DNA of 50,511 nt from Pseudobdellovibrionaceae bacterium (GTDB lineage: Bacteria; Bdellovibrionota; Bdellovibrionia; Bdellovibrionales; JAMPXM01), in the NCBI GenBank assembly GCA_947462815.1, contig CANHQR010000001.1, positions 96,038-146,548 on the forward strand, read 5' to 3'. This document shows, piece by piece, positions 162-10,400 of this stretch. Position 1 is the stretch's first letter. Each line of letters begins with the position of its first letter. Under the pieces are notes generated by a model. It did not search any database. It had not been told where the DNA came from and saw nothing but the letters and a program-made list of their open reading frames with translations. Position numbers and translations under genes: made by a program.

Positions 162-604
162 GCTTTATAGGTCACGTCGCCCTAATTGATCTCTAAAAGA
201 GCATTCGGGGCAACCTGCGGGGGCGCCATCGGGGCCACAGCCCCGCATTTGCGTTTCGTGTGAACAGTGACAAGAATGGGCACCACCCGCCCTGAAGGGT
301 CCTTGCCTCCTTCATGAATTCGACCACATGAACATTCGAATTCTCGAAATCACTGATCAATTCCGTCTCAACTCAAATTGGGAATTGCGGTCTACGCTTT
401 GCTCGCTCCGGATGCTCTTAAGACGTCATCCGTTATGAGGATTCGGAGTTCTGCCTCTTGAGTCCTTCGGAATGAGAGGAAGAAGCCTCGGGATTTGGAC
501 TCTTTGAGGACAGCGTCTCACTCAGCTGTTGGCGCTCGGCCTGATCCGGAATTCGAGGCAGGCCGTGAGTGAGCAGAGCGTGAACGTTGGCGGTGGAGGG
601 TGAA
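162..604. other. 443-bp spacer with two inverted repeats
   Basis: No convincing gene lies here. Reading frames on the minus strand extend into the next gene and look like shadows of it. Two inverted repeats with related arms are visible: GAATTCG (316-322) with CGAATTC (337-343), and CAATTCC (358-364) with GGAATTG (381-387). They precede the three-gene exported operon, so this is its likely control region. I could not pick a clear -10/-35 pair. Confidence 0.4.
316..387. promoter_or_regulatory. Paired inverted repeats, possible operator
   Basis: Two imperfectly spaced dyads sit side by side. Arms GAATTCG/CGAATTC have a 14-bp spacer and arms CAATTCC/GGAATTG have a 16-bp spacer. All arms contain AATTC or its complement. 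They lie about 220-290 bp before the ATG at 605. They could be binding sites for a dimeric regulator or weak hairpins. They do not resemble a classical Fur box. Function is inferred from position only. Confidence 0.25.
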
Positions 605-2764
605 ATGGAAGAATTGCGACAATCAACTTCGACGACTGCCAAGTTGATGAAGCTTCTGAGTATTCCGTCGAGCTCATCGGGGGCAGACCTCGTCCGGCCG
701 CCTCGCTCCGCTTGGCGCCGAGCCTTGATGAGTTTGGCACTTCTCGCCAGCTTACAGTCGACTGTGGGTCCGTTGTCGACCGCCTTCGCCGAAGACCTTG
801 AGCCCCGACAGGTTCCCAAGACAGGTCCCGTCGATATTCCCCCCGGCATGCATTTGGTGACAGATCGGGCAGGTTTACGCTGGCTCTTGCCAGAAGGCAT
901 GGAGGCGCCGCCAGATCGCGAAGTTGAAATCCGTTACTTTAGGACTCGTGTTCAGCCCGAAGAGAAAGGTCGCATTCGCGGCCAAGTTGTTCTGGACGGT
1001 CCGCTCAGCGCGGAAGATACGGTCGTTACAGGCGATGTCAACGATCGACAAAATCTCATGTCGCGCCTACCTCGCGCTTTTGCCGAGGTCATGCGACTCG
1101 AGAAGGACGCAAATCTTCATGCTCAGACCTCCAATGATCTACGAAGTCTTGGCGTATTTGCGCCGGCAGAATTTACGACGTTTCGTTTGCCGTATATTCC
1201 GATTCCAGAATCACAAATGCAGTTCTCTCACATTTCAAGCTATGCAACTCAAGACACGCAAAGACTTGTGCGCTTTGAGCACAATGGTCAGACCTTTGTT
1301 CGCTTCTTCATCCATCCCAACCACGTCAATGCCTATGCAGATTTGATCCAGCGATATGGAATCGTCTACCACTACCATGCGATGACGACTTCCAGCCCAC
1401 GTTCTCTCATCGTGATGGAGCCTGGAAATTCCGATAAAGTTCATTGGGTGAAGGTCTCGATTCACCGTGAAATTGACGGTTCTGTGCGAATTAACACAGA
1501 TAAAAAAGCCCGCCGTGCGATCATCATGAGCGAGGCGATTCAAGCCGTTCCCCAAGAAGTAATGCGCAGCTATGGCGTTCAGTTCATGCTTGAGCCCGCG
1601 GCTTTCCAGCCGCCCGGGAAGCTGGCGTCGACGATTCACCGCGAGTTGGCTCCCGATCTGTTGAATCCGGCCCGCAACACACGGTGGATCCCTGCCTTCA
1701 TCTTGCAGAATACGGGTGAGCACGCCGTGCCCGGTCTGAACATTCGCGATATGTCGCGCCTTGCGGGTGAGCGTCCGATGGACTTTGTTCGAGAGCGGAT
1801 CATTCGCCCTTTGCTGCGAAGCTATCTGGCGATGGGCATTATGGAGGGTTTGCCGGGCGAGCTTCACACGCAGAACTTTTACTATCAGCTTCGTAAATCG
1901 GGTGATGGATGGTTGCCGACCGGCCAAGTCATGTTCAAGGACAACGACGGTTTCCGTTTCGACACGGAGATGGCGATTCGTCACGGACGCCCCTTGCGAA
2001 ACTTTGCTCATTTCCCCGAGCCCTTTGTATGGGGCAAGTTCTCCAACGCCATCGGCACAGGTGCTGAAGGAGTTCCCTTCCTTGGTAGCTGGTACTACAA
2101 GCTCATTCGAAACGTGAATGGCTTTGAGACCTTGTCTGCTTATTTGTTGCGAGCCGTGAATGAGATCGATCCTCGCTCCAATTTGGATAAAGACGGCATT
2201 CAAAGGCTTTTCGATACGGTCGCCAACGAGGAGGCTTTGAAACTGACGGGACTCTCGACTCCGGCTGAACATATGGGTTTCGGCAAAGACAAGGGACTCA
2301 ACTATGTTTTGAATCGCTGGCGCGCTTACCTGGCGAATACCAATGCACCCGAAGTGACGGGCCGGCTTGCGGAGGCTCAAGATCTACTCGCTCGAGAGTT
2401 TGCTCGATTGCGAGAGGCGGGACGTGTGTCGCCGATGCGAAGAACGCTTTCTCAGAGCACCGTCTACATTCCCTACAAGATGACAGACGGTCAGTTGGTT
2501 ATTGAGGCTCGAACATCCCGAACTACAACCGCGAACCCGGATCCCGTCATTGGCTTTGCGCTCATGGAGCCTGCGGGAGAAAATGCTCAGGTTCGTAGAG
2601 CTTATGATCGCATCACTCCGATCGCCATTCGGCCTCAGCACCCGGGCAGTGTCGAAGAGGTACAGGCACGTGCACGAGGAGCGGCCCCGACGACATCGCA
2701 GCTCCGAGCGGTTCCAGCCGGTCAGCGTTGCGAATTCATCTTCACGCCGGCGGCTGGACTATGA
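605..2764 (+). CDS. Exported IucA/IucC-like (NIS siderophore synthetase-fold) protein
   Basis: This 719-residue protein has a GGAGG Shine-Dalgarno at 595-599, 5 bp before the ATG; TTG 587 and GTG 593 are in-frame alternatives. Near residue 45 comes a signal-like stretch, RR then ALMSLALLASL, ending STAFA before EDLEP, which suggests export. The body carries motifs in the order found in IucA/IucC enzymes: IHPNH, TTSSPRS, WVKVS followed by a KARRAII arginine, GELHTQN, and KDNDGFR in place of the usual RD element. Known NIS synthetases couple citrate-type carboxylates to amines or alcohols with ATP in the cytosol, so an export signal is odd. The stop overlaps the next ATG (ATGA). It may be a divergent enzyme, a pseudo-enzyme or a fold relative. 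The family call is by eye only and the substrate is unknown. Confidence 0.6.
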   Translation: MEELRQSTSTTAKLMKLLSIPSSSSGADLVRPPRSAWRRALMSLALLASLQSTVGPLSTAFAEDLEPRQVPKTGPVDIPPGMHLVTDRAGLRWLLPEGMEAPPDREVEIRYFRTRVQPEEKGRIRGQVVLDGPLSAEDTVVTGDVNDRQNLMSRLPRAFAEVMRLEKDANLHAQTSNDLRSLGVFAPAEFTTFRLPYIPIPESQMQFSHISSYATQDTQRLVRFEHNGQTFVRFFIHPNHVNAYADLIQRYGIVYHYHAMTTSSPRSLIVMEPGNSDKVHWVKVSIHREIDGSVRINTDKKARRAIIMSEAIQAVPQEVMRSYGVQFMLEPAAFQPPGKLASTIHRELAPDLLNPARNTRWIPAFILQNTGEHAVPGLNIRDMSRLAGERPMDFVRERIIRPLLRSYLAMGIMEGLPGELHTQNFYYQLRKSGDGWLPTGQVMFKDNDGFRFDTEMAIRHGRPLRNFAHFPEPFVWGKFSNAIGTGAEGVPFLGSWYYKLIRNVNGFETLSAYLLRAVNEIDPRSNLDKDGIQRLFDTVANEEALKLTGLSTPAEHMGFGKDKGLNYVLNRWRAYLANTNAPEVTGRLAEAQDLLAREFARLREAGRVSPMRRTLSQSTVYIPYKMTDGQLVIEARTSRTTTANPDPVIGFALMEPAGENAQVRRAYDRITPIAIRPQHPGSVEEVQARARGAAPTTSQLRAVPAGQRCEFIFTPAAGL

Positions 2765-3825
2765 ATCCGAGAATCTCGCGTCGTGATTTTCTCGTCGTCG
2801 CTCCAATATGGGGATCGGCTATCCTCCTCGGTTCGACTTGGTCGGCTCGAAGCTGGGCCGCGCTTTGCGAGGACATCTTTCGTGGAAGTCGTGAGGTCCA
2901 TGTTACACCCAGCATGTTGGCCTCACCGGATCGCGTGCGGGTCGCGCAGTCTATGGTTGATCTCGGTCTTTCCCAAACGGCCTATGTGGTGCGGTGGCAG
3001 TCCACTTCGCCGACGGCGCGTGGACCTTTCCCCGAGCGAGGCGAGTTTCTCGTCAGCGGCGTACCCAAAGACAAAATCGAAGCGTGGATGGAAAAAGTCG
3101 GCAGCGAATCCGTCGGCCTGGTGATTAGCGGTTTGCCGGAACGAAACCCGGGCACAGCATCCTTGAGAATCGGCGACCGGTATTTCACATTTAGTGATAT
3201 TCAAAAAGATGAGGCCTCAGATGATGGAAGCTTCATCGCGAAGGTTCGACAGGCCTCATGGGGATACTCGGAGCTCACTCTTCCCATTTCCAAGGCGGAA
3301 CAGCAGCATATTCTCGACTTCATTCTGGCGCGGCAAGAGGGCCGAGTTCTCGCACGTCGAGATCTTCGCGGGGGGCCTCGTGCTGGTCAGCCCATTCGAC
3401 CGAGCTTCGACTCCGAAGCTTTTACGCTCCGAGAGGAAAGTTGCGCCGCAGCCTGTACGAGCTGGTTTGATCCGAAATGGTTGGCACATTACGAAGGCGC
3501 GGAGCCACTGCGCGCGATCGCAGAGCGCTTGAACTTGCGTCCAACTTATATCGCCAAACAAATGCTGTGGGGCCATGTGCGACAACCGGGACCCATTGGG
3601 CTCACAATGTTTGGTATTGATCGAGATCCCAATCAAGTGCGCCTACCGGGACGTGCCGGGGGTCCCCAGTTGATGGCCGATTTCATCCATCAAAACGAGT
3701 GGTTCAAGGTTCGCGGAATGCCAGCGCATGGCTACATTCCCGATCCGCTTCGGGGGCGAACCGGAACTATTCAATCCGAACGAATTCCATTGAATGACTA
3801 TCTTTTGGGTCGAGGTGAACCATGA
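2761..3825 (+). CDS. Tat-exported protein, paralogue of the next gene
   Basis: This 354-residue protein starts at the ATG inside the ATGA overlap with the preceding stop. The N-terminus is a twin-arginine signal: SRRDFLVV, a hydrophobic stretch, then SARSWA before ALCED. The mature part is clearly paralogous to the following protein. Shared blocks include GEFL near residue 95, RGGPRAG.PIRPSFD near 205-220, ESCAxACTS with Cys228 and Cys232, and a late HGYIPDP block. The Cys-x3-Cys pair is the best candidate for an active or metal-binding site. Tat export implies folding, perhaps with a cofactor, before transport. I do not recognise the family. The operon position suggests it works with the IucA/IucC-like protein outside the cytoplasm. 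Confidence 0.75.
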   Translation: MNPRISRRDFLVVAPIWGSAILLGSTWSARSWAALCEDIFRGSREVHVTPSMLASPDRVRVAQSMVDLGLSQTAYVVRWQSTSPTARGPFPERGEFLVSGVPKDKIEAWMEKVGSESVGLVISGLPERNPGTASLRIGDRYFTFSDIQKDEASDDGSFIAKVRQASWGYSELTLPISKAEQQHILDFILARQEGRVLARRDLRGGPRAGQPIRPSFDSEAFTLREESCAAACTSWFDPKWLAHYEGAEPLRAIAERLNLRPTYIAKQMLWGHVRQPGPIGLTMFGIDRDPNQVRLPGRAGGPQLMADFIHQNEWFKVRGMPAHGYIPDPLRGRTGTIQSERIPLNDYLLGRGEP

Positions 3826-4811
3826 ATTGGCGGAAGTGGCAGAGAAGCATAGGGCCAGTCGCCCTCGGGGTGTCGCTCATCAGCAGTGTGTTGGTTTCTC
3901 CGCAGAGCGAGGCCACCTCGCGTCAGTGCGGAGCTCTATTTCGAGGCGAAGTCTTTACGGCTGAAAACACGTCGGCGATCGAAGGCGTTGAGGGGCGTGT
4001 TCGCATGTCGCGCGCCTTGATTCGTGTGGGTCTGGAGGATTTTGCCTACATCGCTAAATGGCGCCTCAAGACAGGAGCTGACGCCGGTCCCTATCCTCGA
4101 CAGGGAGAGTTTCTTTCCGTTGGTGTGACGCGCGAAAAGTTTTCGGGTTGGATGCGTGAGATCGGGGAAAAAACCATCGGTATTGGCTTTGACGGCACGG
4201 CGGCTGACCCGGGAAGTGCGAGCCTTCGAGTGGGCAATCAGCACTATTCTTACTATGGGATTCAGAGCGGCACGGCGCCGACGACGTCAAACTTCGGCCA
4301 TCGAGTTGAAGCGACATTCTATGTGACGCCCGCCGAGATGCGAGCGGTCACCGAATTTCTTGAGGCCCGAGGTCGCGGCGAGATCGTAGCGGCACGGGAT
4401 ATTCGCGGTGGACCACGAGCTGGCGAACCTATTCGTCCCTCGTTCGACTACAACTCAGCAAACCTCGTCCAGGAATCCTGCGCGGGAGCCTGCACGAGTT
4501 TCGCAAGTCCTCTGTGGTTGCAGCATTATGCGGGCGCTCGAATTCTCGAGAACTTACGTGAGCGACTGGCTCTGTATTCTCAACAGGCGGCGCGCGGCAC
4601 GGTTTGGCGCCACGCGAGGGTACCGAATCTCATGGCGATCACGCAGTTTGGCATCGATGCGAACTCAGGAAGCTTCATTGAAACCAATCGCTGGGGAACT
4701 CTGCGAAGTATTCCAATCTATTCACATATCCCAGACCCACCGACGGGCACGAGTTCGGCCCTGACGGCTCGTCGCGTTCCCCTGGCTGACTACATTCAGT
4801 CGCATCGATAA
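3822..4811 (+). CDS. Sec-exported protein, paralogue of the preceding gene
   Basis: This 329-residue protein starts at an ATG overlapping the previous stop by 4 bp. The N-terminus, up to about SEATS, is an ordinary Sec signal without a twin arginine. It shares with the preceding protein GPYPRQGEFL, RGGPRAGEPIRPSFD, QESCAGACTS (Cys220, Cys224), LQHYAGA and HIPDP. The two probably arose by tandem duplication and then adopted different export routes. The stop TAA (4809-4811) abuts the stop of the convergent downstream gene with no spacer. No known family is recognised. The spacing of Cys and later His could suit a hydrolase, but that is speculation. Confidence 0.75.
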   Translation: MNWRKWQRSIGPVALGVSLISSVLVSPQSEATSRQCGALFRGEVFTAENTSAIEGVEGRVRMSRALIRVGLEDFAYIAKWRLKTGADAGPYPRQGEFLSVGVTREKFSGWMREIGEKTIGIGFDGTAADPGSASLRVGNQHYSYYGIQSGTAPTTSNFGHRVEATFYVTPAEMRAVTEFLEARGRGEIVAARDIRGGPRAGEPIRPSFDYNSANLVQESCAGACTSFASPLWLQHYAGARILENLRERLALYSQQAARGTVWRHARVPNLMAITQFGIDANSGSFIETNRWGTLRSIPIYSHIPDPPTGTSSALTARRVPLADYIQSHR

Positions 4812-5726
4812 TTAGGTATCTGCGAGACTGAGTAGGGAACCGACAGAAACTTGTGACGCCGCCTCTCGTATGAGGGGCGGCGTTTCGCGTTGTACGATCG
4901 CTGCTTGCCGTAAACTTGCAAGCGCAGCGGCCTGATCAAAACTTCGTTCGAAGTTCTGCAGGAGTTGTTCGGTCGAAATTTTCAACTCATCGAGGGTGAC
5001 ACCTTGCGACCGCTTTTCCAGTCGAGAACCATCGTTGTGCACGACGAGCGACGTGTGGAAGACCCGAATCTTGTCCCCCAACTCGGGGCTTCGCCATATA
5101 CGGATCGCCCGCTGAATCGCCTCAGCCGGCAACAGATCTATCGCTCGCACTAACAACTGATAGCCGCCGTCGGCATCATCAATCGCACAAGCCCAGTGGT
5201 AGGCGGGCTCGACCGCCGCCAAATCACCACGTGCAACCAGGGGATCACGGTGTCCCTCATCATCCGCCGATTTCCACCGCCATCCGACATGGCTATTGAG
5301 TTGTTGGGGAGGATGCTTGCGGCACTTGCCGTTGTAGACGGCCTCCGGTCCATGAGGTGCGGAGGCCAAGCCTTCCAAAACTTCACGTCGCGAGCATGTA
5401 CAAGGGTAGATGCGGCCCTCCTCGTAGGCCTGTTGCAAGCTCTGTTGATGAATCGGCAATCGCTGGCGTTGCCAAACGATGAGATCCGCTCGCAATCCCA
5501 ATCGCTCCAAATCCTGGTGTTGAGTTTTCCAAAAGTCGGCTTGAGATCGCAGCGGATCTAAGTCCTCAACCCGAACAACCCAGGTCTGACCGAGAAGACG
5601 TGCGAGTTTCTCTGAAATCCAAGCTGTACGAAGGTTGCCGATGTGAAATCGACCGGTCGGTGAAGGGGCAAAGCGAACTCCTTGCAGGAATCGATGAGCG
5701 GATCGATTCGACGACGTGTTCGGCAT
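4812..5726 (-). CDS. gluQ: Glutamyl-Q tRNA(Asp) synthetase
   Basis: This 304-residue protein matches the short GluRS paralogue that attaches glutamate to queuosine in the anticodon of tRNA-Asp. It lacks the anticodon-binding domain of full GluRS. Visible features are RFAPSPTGRFHIGN (the HIGH-type motif) near residue 18, RVEDLDPLR, a zinc site of type CxC (YPCTC) followed by YNGKC, and RLEKRSQG at the KMSKS position, in which the second lysine is kept. A GAGG lies 5-6 bp before the ATG. It follows the ASCH-like lipoprotein gene by 13 bp and is likely co-transcribed with it. No queuosine biosynthesis gene is in this window. Confidence 0.88.
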   Translation of the reverse strand: MPNTSSNRSAHRFLQGVRFAPSPTGRFHIGNLRTAWISEKLARLLGQTWVVRVEDLDPLRSQADFWKTQHQDLERLGLRADLIVWQRQRLPIHQQSLQQAYEEGRIYPCTCSRREVLEGLASAPHGPEAVYNGKCRKHPPQQLNSHVGWRWKSADDEGHRDPLVARGDLAAVEPAYHWACAIDDADGGYQLLVRAIDLLPAEAIQRAIRIWRSPELGDKIRVFHTSLVVHNDGSRLEKRSQGVTLDELKISTEQLLQNFERSFDQAAALASLRQAAIVQRETPPLIREAASQVSVGSLLSLADT

Positions 5727-5739
5727 TTGCGCCTCAATC

Positions 5740-6459
5740 TCAGGGCGCTGGGGGCTGTGAAAGTCGCTGGCGAATGGCGGAATTCAGGTTCGGGAAACGA
5801 TCGAGAAATAAATAGCCAGGCGGAGGACTAAAAGCGGCATCCAACTGTCGCGCTTCCGTCAGCGAAATCCTTTTCTGAAAGGGCGTCATGCTCAGCAATT
5901 TCGTCGCAAATCCCACGGGTCGATCGCCGTAATAGCCCAGCAAAGCATCGGCCGAGGTTCCACTCTCCGTCCAGGTGGTGTTGACGATCTCTGTTGGGGG
6001 GCCACCGAGAGTGTGGCTGATCTCCGCGATCCCAAACAGTTCGCGTGTTGTCGTATTGTAAAACACGATATGCGAAACGGGATCGGCGGGGTGACTTTTG
6101 CGATACTCCCAGGTTTTCGACCCGGAGACCAACCAGTCGATGATAACTTGAGGCACGCTCAAAACGATCGCGCAGAACTGACCGTCGGAACGCCCGGGAA
6201 TGCTCTGCAGGACTCCGGGCTGTGTTAAAGAAACGGGGCCTTGAGTTTCACACACACCGGACATGGCTTTCGGATCGGAGTTGTTCTGGCGAGTTCCAGA
6301 TCCCTCGTTCGGATTGCGACTTTCCTTCAGCGGCGCACAGGCGGTCACACCGACAACCAGTAAGGCCAACAGGCCCTTACGGGCCCGCGAGAACTTGGCG
6401 ATTTGTTTCCATTGGATGCCTGGACCTCGACGGAGGCCCTCCGTACCTTGATGCTGCAT
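5740..6459 (-). CDS. Lipoprotein with ASCH-like domain
   Basis: This is a 239-residue protein from the ATG at 6459, preceded by AGAGGGGG; an in-frame TTG at 6495 is an alternative. After a basic N-region comes GLLALLVVGVTAC, a lipobox with Cys as the lipidated residue. A low-complexity Ser/Asn/Gly linker follows. The C-terminal half resembles ASCH domains: an IIDWLVSGSKTWEYRK block (the GxKxxExR signature), IVFYNTTTRELFGIAEI, then a YYG...GFAT strand. ASCH proteins are typically cytosolic RNA-binding or hydrolase domains, so a lipid-anchored one is unusual. Its gene lies between tig and gluQ on the same strand. Function is unknown. The domain call is by eye, while the lipobox is clear. Confidence 0.65.
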   Translation of the reverse strand: MQHQGTEGLRRGPGIQWKQIAKFSRARKGLLALLVVGVTACAPLKESRNPNEGSGTRQNNSDPKAMSGVCETQGPVSLTQPGVLQSIPGRSDGQFCAIVLSVPQVIIDWLVSGSKTWEYRKSHPADPVSHIVFYNTTTRELFGIAEISHTLGGPPTEIVNTTWTESGTSADALLGYYGDRPVGFATKLLSMTPFQKRISLTEARQLDAAFSPPPGYLFLDRFPNLNSAIRQRLSQPPAP

Positions 6460-7870: not shown

Positions 7871-8136
7871 CCCCAGTCGTATGAGTTCACAGGTTCATTT
7901 GAGTCTCCCGTGCTGCCCGAGGTCATAGACGAGAGTCGACCTCGCGCGCCGGGTGAAAAACTGACTGAACCAGAAGCCCCGAAGTGATAGGAAAAAGAGA
8001 CGAATTAAGCAAGGAATCCGGCGGGGAATCGAGAATCAGGCCCGGCGTCGAAACTTCTTCGCAGAGACCGGGTCGATTTTGAGGCCTAAAAAGCCGAGTT
8101 GGACCAGGGTTGAACGCGGCTTGGGGAGATTTGTAC
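7871..8136. other. Divergent promoter region between tig and the ArsA-like operon
   Basis: This 266-bp spacer separates divergently transcribed genes and should hold promoters for both. I see no clear -10/-35 pair or strong dyad. A TTG at 8110 opens the frame of the downstream gene, but the better Shine-Dalgarno (GGGGAG, 8123-8128) serves the TTG at 8137. Confidence 0.3.
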
Positions 8137-9210
8137 TTGTCGAATCAAGTGAAGAGCCTGGAGAAGAATTTGGGCATGAATGTGGGGGCGAATCCCGCTC
8201 AGGCTGCGGATCTCGGTGGCGCTACGGGACCCTCGTTTTCAGGCCGGGCCGCTGATTTTTTGGGGGCCCATCAACCCCAAGATTTCCTTGATCGTCCCTA
8301 CGTCCTCGTCTCGGGTAAGGGCGGCGTCGGAAAGTCGTTTGTCGCCGCAGCCTTGGCGGCTCTCCAAGTGGATTTGGGTCGTTCGCCCCTCTTGGTGGAG
8401 ACGGGAGATCGCTCCTACTTTCAGGAACTTATGGGTCTCACTGAGGTTCATCAACAGCCGCAGCGAACACCTTTGGGCTTTGATTTGGTGTGCTGGTCGG
8501 GCGAGGGATGCCTGCGGGAATACGTGCTGCATTTGCTGAAGCTCGAAAAAATCTACCGCATGTTCTTCGAAAATCGAGTCATGCGGGCTTTGGTCAATGT
8601 CGCACCTGGACTCAACGAAATTGCGATTCTCGGCAAACTCACCTCGGGACTGCGGCGCGTTGGTCCGCGGATGGCCCACCAGCGCATGGTGGTCGACATG
8701 CCGGCCACAGGACACGCCCTGGCGATGTTGCGAGCACCGCTGGGTTTGCTCGAAGCGGTGCAGGTGGGGCCGATGGCCTCGAACTCCCGCGACGTACACG
8801 CCCTCCTTCGTGAACCACGTGCCACAGCGATGGTGGTGGTGACGCTACTGGAGGAGTTGCCGGTGACGGAAACCCTGGAATTCGTGGCGGCTGTGAAGCG
8901 CGAATTTGCGATGCCGATTTTCATCGTGGCGAATCGAACGCAAGCGGCGCCGGCCCCTCAGCCCGAGCTGCGCAGTTTGATCGCCTCGGAGAGTTTGAAC
9001 GAAGATGTACGCGAGTTCATACGCGGCATGATGGCTCGCGATCAGAGCGAAGCCCATGCGCGACAGGCTCTGCACGAAGGCTTGCGCCAGCTGGGACTTG
9101 AACCTGAAACTTGCGTGGCCGAAATTCCACGCTACTGGGCGGCGCCGCCTCTCGATATGATTCGTCGTGCAAAGGAGGAGTTACGGAAAAGCTTGATGAC
9201 CTCCTCATGA
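8137..9210 (+). CDS. ArsA/GET3-like ATPase, first of a pair
   Basis: This is a 357-residue P-loop protein from the TTG at 8137 (GGGGAG 8 bp upstream); TTG 8110 and ATG 8176 are alternatives. It holds the deviant Walker A SGKGGVGKS near residue 50 and a Walker B/switch region VVDMPATGHALAML like the ArsA DTAPTGH motif. It lacks a DPA-type motif after Walker A, having VETGDRS instead. ArsA/GET3 ATPases couple ATP hydrolysis to metalloid efflux or delivery of tail-anchored proteins. No ArsB or ArsR is nearby, so arsenite transport is doubtful. The stop overlaps the second ATPase by 4 bp. The two products may form a heterodimer. Confidence 0.8.
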   Translation: MSNQVKSLEKNLGMNVGANPAQAADLGGATGPSFSGRAADFLGAHQPQDFLDRPYVLVSGKGGVGKSFVAAALAALQVDLGRSPLLVETGDRSYFQELMGLTEVHQQPQRTPLGFDLVCWSGEGCLREYVLHLLKLEKIYRMFFENRVMRALVNVAPGLNEIAILGKLTSGLRRVGPRMAHQRMVVDMPATGHALAMLRAPLGLLEAVQVGPMASNSRDVHALLREPRATAMVVVTLLEELPVTETLEFVAAVKREFAMPIFIVANRTQAAPAPQPELRSLIASESLNEDVREFIRGMMARDQSEAHARQALHEGLRQLGLEPETCVAEIPRYWAAPPLDMIRRAKEELRKSLMTSS

Positions 9211-10400
9211 ATCGTCGCGTTCTCGTTGCTGTGGGCAGCGGGGGCGTCGGCAAAACGACGATGGCCGCAGCTCTCGGTGTGCGAGCTCGGCAGCTGGGGC
9301 GCCGGGCGCTGGTGCTAACGGTGGATCCCGCCAAACGCTTGGCCACCGCGATGGGTTTGGATCTATCGAACGATGAAGTGCGCGTCGTGCGTCGAATCGA
9401 GCGCGACACGACGGCCTCGTTGGGCGCGGCCGATTTTTCACCGGCCGGCGAGGTCTATGCTGCCGTCATCGACTCAAAAAAAACCTTTGATGATTTTGTC
9501 CGCCGCTATGCCAAAGATAAAGACTTGATCGAGCGGTTGATGCGCAATCAGCTTTATCGACAGCTTTCGACAACGCTGGCGGGTTCGCAAGAGTTCACAG
9601 CCCTGGAAAGACTGTTGGCGGCGAGTGAGGCGAAGGATTATGACCTCGTCATTCTCGATACGCCGCCCACACAGCACGCGTTGGACTTCTTGTCGGCTCC
9701 CGATCGAATTCGTTCGCTCTTTCAAGACTCCATCACCAAGTGGTTTATGAACCCCACAGAGAATAAATCTTGGGTGGGGAGCCTTTTGAGTGGTGAGCTT
9801 TTGGCGCGCGGCACGCGTTTGGCGTTGAGGTCCCTCGAGGCACTCACCGGAGCCAAGTTCATCGAGGAGCTGATCGATTTTTTTGCATCGGTTCGCTCGA
9901 TTCAAGGACAGCTACGGGACCGAAGCGAGGCCGTGCAGAAGCTTTTGCTCAGCCGCGATACGGGCTTTGTCTTGGTGACGTCATTCGATGAGGCCAAGCT
10001 CACTGAGGCGCAGCATCTGCAAGGCGAGCTTCGCAATCGGGGGTATCGGTTAGAGGTTTGCATTTTGAATCGCGCGTTTCCCGAGATCCTTCCGGAGGCC
10101 CTCGATTTTGAGAAGATCTCGGCATCCCTAGGTGAGAATACGCCACTTCGCGCGACAGCTCAGAAGGTGGCCGCGGCGTATGAGCTGCGCTATCGAGATC
10201 ATCAACAGCGCTTTGCAGCTCTTGCGAGCTTTGCTCAGCGATTGGACCCTAAAGTCGTGTTGCTTCGTGTGCCTGAGTATCGCCAAGATCTATATGGAAT
10301 CGAGGACTTGGAAGCCCTCGCCGAAAGCTTACCGCAAAGTGCGAAAGCTGGAGCGCAAGGTCGGCCGGCCGCCCCCCCCCGATCCACCACCGAAGCTTGA
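9207..10400 (+). CDS. ArsA/GET3-like ATPase, second of a pair
   Basis: This 397-residue protein starts at the ATG in an ATGA overlap with the previous gene. It holds GSGGVGKTT (deviant Walker A) near residue 10, LTVDPAKRLA (switch I DPA motif) and VILDTPPTQHALDFL (switch II). It is closer to canonical ArsA than its partner. The C-terminal tail is Ala/Pro-rich and probably disordered. A strong GGAGGAG lies about 28 bp upstream with no start codon at the right distance, so translation is probably coupled to the upstream gene. Likely role: an ATPase that forms a dimer with the first protein for membrane targeting or for an envelope process. The substrate is unknown. Confidence 0.85.
   Translation: MNRRVLVAVGSGGVGKTTMAAALGVRARQLGRRALVLTVDPAKRLATAMGLDLSNDEVRVVRRIERDTTASLGAADFSPAGEVYAAVIDSKKTFDDFVRRYAKDKDLIERLMRNQLYRQLSTTLAGSQEFTALERLLAASEAKDYDLVILDTPPTQHALDFLSAPDRIRSLFQDSITKWFMNPTENKSWVGSLLSGELLARGTRLALRSLEALTGAKFIEELIDFFASVRSIQGQLRDRSEAVQKLLLSRDTGFVLVTSFDEAKLTEAQHLQGELRNRGYRLEVCILNRAFPEILPEALDFEKISASLGENTPLRATAQKVAAAYELRYRDHQQRFAALASFAQRLDPKVVLLRVPEYRQDLYGIEDLEALAESLPQSAKAGAQGRPAAPPRSTTEA

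Follow-up and report, generated by a model that had tools for sequence, protein, structure and literature searches.

PUA-like domains, ASCH among them, are regarded as modules that handle nucleic acids or nucleosides inside the cell. The Zymomonas protein ZmASCH is described as a Mg-dependent ssRNase, in which Tyr47, Lys53 and Ser128 are needed for RNA binding or cleavage (PMC5615036), and YqfB as an N4-acylcytidine amidohydrolase that requires Lys21, Thr24, Arg26 and Glu74 (PMC6972931). Binding of modified bases is known for EVE domains and predicted for some ASCH domains, and ASCH is found with (PIN)-GNAT-EVE operons (PMC7641849). Among the literature matches listed, no title or opening of an abstract reported an exported or lipoprotein ASCH. 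Here we analysed a stretch of 50,511 bases (the window, contig 1 of genome G000) together with relatives that are Bdellovibrionota MAGs, and studied a gene in it that encodes an ASCH protein with a predicted lipid anchor. The gene and its parts are as follows.

5740–6459, minus strand: ASCH-domain lipoprotein gene, 239 aa (open reading frame and translation)
6340–6459, minus strand: predicted lipoprotein signal peptide, residues 1–40 (hydrophobic stretch GLLALLVVGVTA behind a basic n-region; 5/5 orthologs)
6337–6348, minus strand: lipobox V38-T-A-C41 with Cys41 as predicted lipidation site, then Ala-Pro (C41 and P43 invariant, 5/5)
6190–6336, minus strand: linker and N-terminal extension, residues 42–90 (alignment, model)
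6250–6252, minus strand: Cys70, invariant in 5/5 (ortholog alignment)
6172–6174, minus strand: Cys96, invariant in 5/5 (ortholog alignment)
5791–6177, minus strand: ASCH domain, about residues 95–223 (ortholog profile, phrog_3136, predicted structure)
6097–6123, minus strand: GSKTWEYRK motif (GxKxxExR), residues 113–121 (alignment)

An earlier note, made from the sequence of the window, had proposed an ASCH domain with a GSKTWEYRK signature, and this assignment holds, as the motif is in place and the predicted fold matches ASCH. The Pfam part of the profile evidence stayed below its cut-off: the window protein scored 15.1 bits against PF04266, whose gathering cut-off of 21.2 is a detection threshold and not a structural feature. 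Only two of the five orthologs (the window protein and four others at 38–45% identity, in genomes G004, G010, G011 and G012) matched PF04266 at E up to 1, and an NCBIfam scan of the protein gave no match. The profile built from the five orthologs, on the other hand, reached ZmASCH with an E-value of 4.5e-7 over 119 positions, and all five matched phrog_3136 (E 6.7e-12 for the window protein), a family to which Pfam-positive ASCH proteins from elsewhere in the phylum also belong. In the predicted structure, residues 1–67 have pLDDT below 50 and the C-terminal domain is confident. The beta-barrel expected for ASCH was recovered there, with ZmASCH as the best solved match (Foldseek E 4e-10; VIA Z 16.4, rmsd 2.6, 140 aligned), well above the YTH, EVE and TRIP4-ASCH rows (VIA Z about 9–10). 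Lectin rows that appeared in the ortholog-profile search were rejected as chance-level repeats. By sequence comparison and structure prediction, then, the C-terminal domain is an ASCH domain of the ZmASCH or phage type. Within the motif, G113, K115, Y119 and R120 are invariant in the five orthologs and E118 is kept in four, with Asp in G012. D126, H130, T162, T168, D171, Y176 and R180 are likewise invariant, and we argue from these residues, together with K115 and R120, that the domain is under constraint. A search of genome contigs for close homologues with the single window protein gave no match; with the ortholog alignment it returned three records (L010–L012), which appear to repeat genomes already in our set (two Bdellovibrionaceae MAGs and one Bdellovibrionota MAG).

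The orthologs also bear out the lipobox (VTAC) that the note had read as joined by a linker to the domain: all five proteins keep both parts, with C41 and P43 invariant, and none of the four others starts past the lipobox. The window protein begins with RKGLLALLVVGVTA-C41 (Cys41 codon at 6337–6339), and the residues after the Cys are Ala-Pro or Gly-Pro in all five. A relaxed lipobox behind a hydrophobic stretch was found in 5/5 orthologs and the strict pattern [LVI][ASTVI][GAS]C in 2/5, while of shuffled versions of the five N-termini 0.08% to 1.5% passed the relaxed pattern. The window gene starts with the ATG at 6459, just after an SD-like GAGGGGG, and SD-like sites precede the signal-peptide starts in four of the five genes, the fifth (G004) having no clear start. 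An accidental lipobox on a cytosolic protein that really starts downstream would be compatible with the in-frame ATG66 of the window gene and with the situation in G004. However, the invariance of C41 and P43, the hydrophobic stretch in all five and the SD-like sites at four signal-peptide starts, with none at ATG66, speak against it, and we regard it as extremely improbable. Taken together, alignment and model confirm a conserved ASCH protein with a predicted lipid anchor. The Ala that follows Cys41 suggests outer-membrane sorting according to the E. coli rule. Cys70 and Cys96 probably form a disulfide that would stabilise the barrel; a Cys at the position of C96 also occurs in an [Eubacterium] eligens relative that has no lipobox.

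The remark that a lipid-anchored ASCH is unexpected agrees with a survey of the phylum. Searching 368 genomes with PF04266 gave 88 frames in 69 genomes, all of which were read. The five lipoprotein genes are absent from these frames, while the ASCH encoded within a gene cassette of G178, a genome of another family of the phylum, passes at 26.2 bits. None of the 88 other ASCH frames passed the lipobox test, and a single one, G178:C63:202793–203113, carries a clear signal peptide as judged by hydropathy and by eye. Exported ASCH is therefore rare within this phylum sample. Hydrophobic flags raised in ASCH frames of L093 and L098 were not signal peptides by eye.

We read the residues needed by the two described enzymes off the alignment. 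Tyr47 of ZmASCH corresponds to Tyr134 in the window protein and to Phe in the other four orthologs. Lys53 has no counterpart, and all five have Gly in place of Ser128. By motif spacing, the position of YqfB Thr24 is occupied by Glu118 (Asp in G012). As the set of key residues is complete for neither enzyme, both known ASCH chemistries are unlikely. This bears directly on the idea of an envelope ribonuclease that cuts RNA outside the cytoplasm, for example that of lysed neighbours or prey. The idea draws on the nearest solved structure being that of a Mg-dependent ssRNase (PMC5615036), but the state of the three positions noted above makes it quite improbable. We favour a binding module over an enzyme, because residues that ZmASCH and YqfB need are lost, and the many invariant polar residues point to a kept pocket.

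We then turned to the genes around the ASCH gene.

4812–5726, minus strand: GluQ-RS-like gene, 13 bases downstream of the ASCH stop codon
6542–7870, minus strand: tig (trigger factor), upstream of the ASCH gene (TIGR00115)
587–2764, plus strand: exported IucA/IucC-like (NIS-synthetase-like) protein, exact start uncertain (PF04183; signal-peptide-like N-termini of relatives)
2728–3825, plus strand: protein X, first copy, with an N-terminal SRRDFLV that is Tat-signal-like by eye
3822–4811, plus strand: protein X, second copy, with a Sec-like signal peptide and a conserved ESCAxAC

Of the two neighbours named earlier, tig is identified clearly, with 424 bits for TIGR00115 (cut-off 180), but the tRNA-modifying synthetase gene reached 147 bits where 276.7 are required and is therefore called only GluQ-RS-like. 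Each of the five lipoprotein genes is flanked by tig and the GluQ-RS-like gene, in the order tig-ASCH-gluQ. However, among the eight genomes of the family that lack the lipoprotein, tig directly adjoins the GluQ-RS-like gene in six, so that the ASCH gene looks inserted there and the link to tRNA is weak. In the other two (G003 and G007) neither an ASCH lipoprotein nor a GluQ-RS-like gene was seen after tig. In G178 the cassette ASCH and tig are on different contigs. These observations do not support the meaning that had been attached to the tig and tRNA-synthetase neighbourhood, which is probably incidental. Upstream of tig, at 8110–10400 on the plus strand, the window has two consecutive P-loop ATPase-like genes, the first an ArsA_ATPase match, and relatives show a comparable pair next to tig.

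The exported IucA/IucC-like and X genes are more constant partners of the ASCH than tig and gluQ. The IucA/IucC-like protein of the window scores 26.9 bits against PF04183 (cut-off 25), a cut-off that was passed by all five cassette genes tested, and a PDB sequence search with it gave no match. The cassette proteins have signal-peptide-like N-termini and, in the alignment, conserved HP, S-x-R, K-x-S, E-x-H-x-Q-N and K/R-D motifs. We take these to be the catalytic motifs of NIS synthetases. Matches to the IucA/IucC-like family occur in 41 of the 368 genomes, many of the aligned ones with signal-peptide-like N-termini, and an exported enzyme of an ATP-using fold would be odd. Protein X was found in six of the 368 genomes (G000, G004, G010, G011, G013 and G178), its family comprising the two window copies, 39% identical to each other, and homologues in L006, L007, L008, L024 and L077; ESCAxAC is invariant across their alignment. 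It belongs to no Pfam family (a single row, at 0.22) and had no match in a PDB sequence search. For its predicted model (mean pLDDT 83), Foldseek gave nothing at E 0.001, and just two VIA rows reach a Z of 5, TseH (6v98, Z 5.9) and YiiX (2if6, Z 5.1), both below a discriminating level. TseH and YiiX are relatives of each other. Helped by the invariant ESCAxAC, these rows offer a weak lead to a permuted papain-like (NlpC/P60-like) fold for X.

Strong IucA-like matches (E < 1e-60) were found in the same six genomes as X; the one in G011 is split in two by contig ends. A lipoprotein or cassette ASCH was also found in six genomes (G000, G004, G010, G011, G012 and G178, the last copy without a signal peptide), and weaker matches to the ASCH profile (E 2e-8 to 2e-4) in four further genomes, with one more in G010. 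ASCH, X and the IucA-like gene thus occur together in five of the six ASCH genomes. Fisher's test of ASCH against X gave p = 6.6e-10, uncorrected for kinship and inflated, since a single family, at a single locus, accounts for four of the five co-occurrences. In G013, X and the IucA-like gene occur with no ASCH found, and G012 (76% complete) has the lipoprotein without the cassette, which is absent from the stretch past the GluQ-RS-like gene although that stretch is present; hence neither ASCH nor cassette requires the other.

The fifth co-occurrence is in G178, where the stop codon of X is followed at once by the start of the ASCH gene (TAA-ATG) and the IucA-like gene comes next, with two N's between ASCH and IucA-like gene. 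This ASCH has no signal peptide and would be cytosolic, so that export is not essential to the association of ASCH and cassette. It is the top profile match outside the lipoproteins (60.7 bits; the next has 34.7), and in a tree it groups with them at 95/98, on a long branch (length 3) that leaves its placement unsure. The signal-peptide-bearing ASCH of G178 (L024:10788–11264, minus strand; the same gene is in L158) is convergent with the IucA-like gene, lying on the opposite strand 10 bases beyond its end, and matches phrog_32075 without a match to phrog_3136; there are thus two kinds of ASCH at the cassette. Its signal peptide is of the Sec type, and it has the motif GQKTATVR. With the K, T and R of this motif present, it is possible by sequence that it is a periplasmic amidohydrolase of the YqfB type; no YqfB structure was matched.

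These arrangements bear on two further explanations. The ASCH gene could be a hitchhiker, a phage-type ASCH that landed between tig and gluQ and gained a signal peptide without any link to the cassette. Its cytosolic relatives on phages, plasmids and PIN-GNAT-EVE-like loci would fit such an origin, as would the solitary lipoprotein of G012 and the ASCH-less cassette of G013, but the G178 cassette holds the ASCH of the nearest type and has a second, exported one beside it, and we judge this explanation improbable. A further possibility is that the ASCH assists X or confers immunity to it, should X be a toxic hydrolase. The start of the G178 ASCH right at the X stop codon and the weak likeness of X to TseH and YiiX hint in this direction; against it, G013 has X without ASCH, the match of X is weak (the Z scores given above) and its toxicity is a guess, which renders this explanation very improbable. 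Altogether, the tie of the ASCH to the exported gene set is suggestive but incomplete.

The reading that we tentatively put first is that of an outer-membrane-anchored ASCH module that binds a nucleoside- or nucleic-acid-like ligand, is not an enzyme, and serves the exported cassette. The precursor would be made, exported, cut before Cys41 and lipidated, and the Ala at the position after Cys41 would direct it to the outer membrane. There the barrel, probably stabilised by the disulfide, would be displayed on the flexible linker and would hold, outside the cytoplasm, a ligand resembling a nucleoside, a modified base or a nucleic acid, for the co-inherited IucA/IucC-like and X proteins. The gene may have originated as a captured copy of an ASCH of the phage or toxin-antitoxin type. 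Ruby and colleagues (1985; cited in PMC7529429) are reported to have described nucleoside monophosphate uptake in Bdellovibrio. Close behind the nucleoside-binding explanation ranks the possibility, in itself somewhat unlikely, that the exported ASCH binds a peptide or whatever small molecule the IucA/IucC-like enzyme makes, and nothing nucleic. The loss of the ZmASCH nucleic-acid residues is consistent with this, and so is the constant partner being a synthetase homologue and not a nuclease; yet the GxKxxExR pocket motif, which is common to cytosolic relatives, and the wide set of polar residues are invariant.

A wider picture, which we consider rather unlikely, is that some Bdellovibrionota carry out nucleoside- or RNA-linked chemistry outside the cytoplasm. 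The exported IucA/IucC-like synthetase homologue, an exported protein of papain-like fold and the ASCH as a reader on the outer membrane would then make up one system, whose targets would be modified nucleosides or nucleic acids from other cells, or else a self-made product bearing such a group, with two ASCH subfamilies recruited independently. A conserved lipid-anchored ASCH that recurs next to exported, enzyme-like proteins would widen the range of the superfamily to include the cell envelope, and it marks a small, testable set of exported genes in a phylum that includes bacterial predators.

The comparison with known systems gives the following picture. Phage-type ASCH proteins as defined by phrog_3136, which are encoded on phages, on plasmids and in (PIN)-GNAT-EVE loci, share the sequence family of the window protein but differ from it in gene neighbourhood and N-terminus. 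No PIN, GNAT or EVE genes are beside the window ASCH, whose neighbours are tig and the GluQ-RS-like gene, and nine sampled proteins of the phrog_3136 type start near the domain or have an HTH-type N-terminal part, with no lipobox by eye. Searches matched 1 of 50,697 phage records and 6 of 72,556 plasmid records; none of these matches covers 80% of the query and all start at residue 83 or later, and viral contigs gave no match to the ASCH lipoprotein. Elsewhere, at L018:1061–1914 and L021:3–1863, phage-type ASCH genes lie beside PIN-like and GNAT genes, where L021 combines GNAT with an EVE match under the threshold, an arrangement that agrees with the published (PIN)-GNAT-EVE loci. The neighbouring IucA/IucC-like gene shares with the NIS synthetases (IucA/IucC, PF04183) a family score over the cut-off, but the cassette proteins differ from them by their signal-peptide-like N-termini and the company of X and ASCH. 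With the YqfB-type amidohydrolases the window protein has in common the ASCH superfamily and the Lys and Arg of the motif, while the Thr nucleophile is replaced. With ZmASCH (5guq, 5gus, 5y6b, 5y6c) it shares the fold and the GxKxxExR motif region; however, the solved ZmASCH chain has no signal peptide, whereas the window protein has a predicted one, a linker and two invariant Cys.
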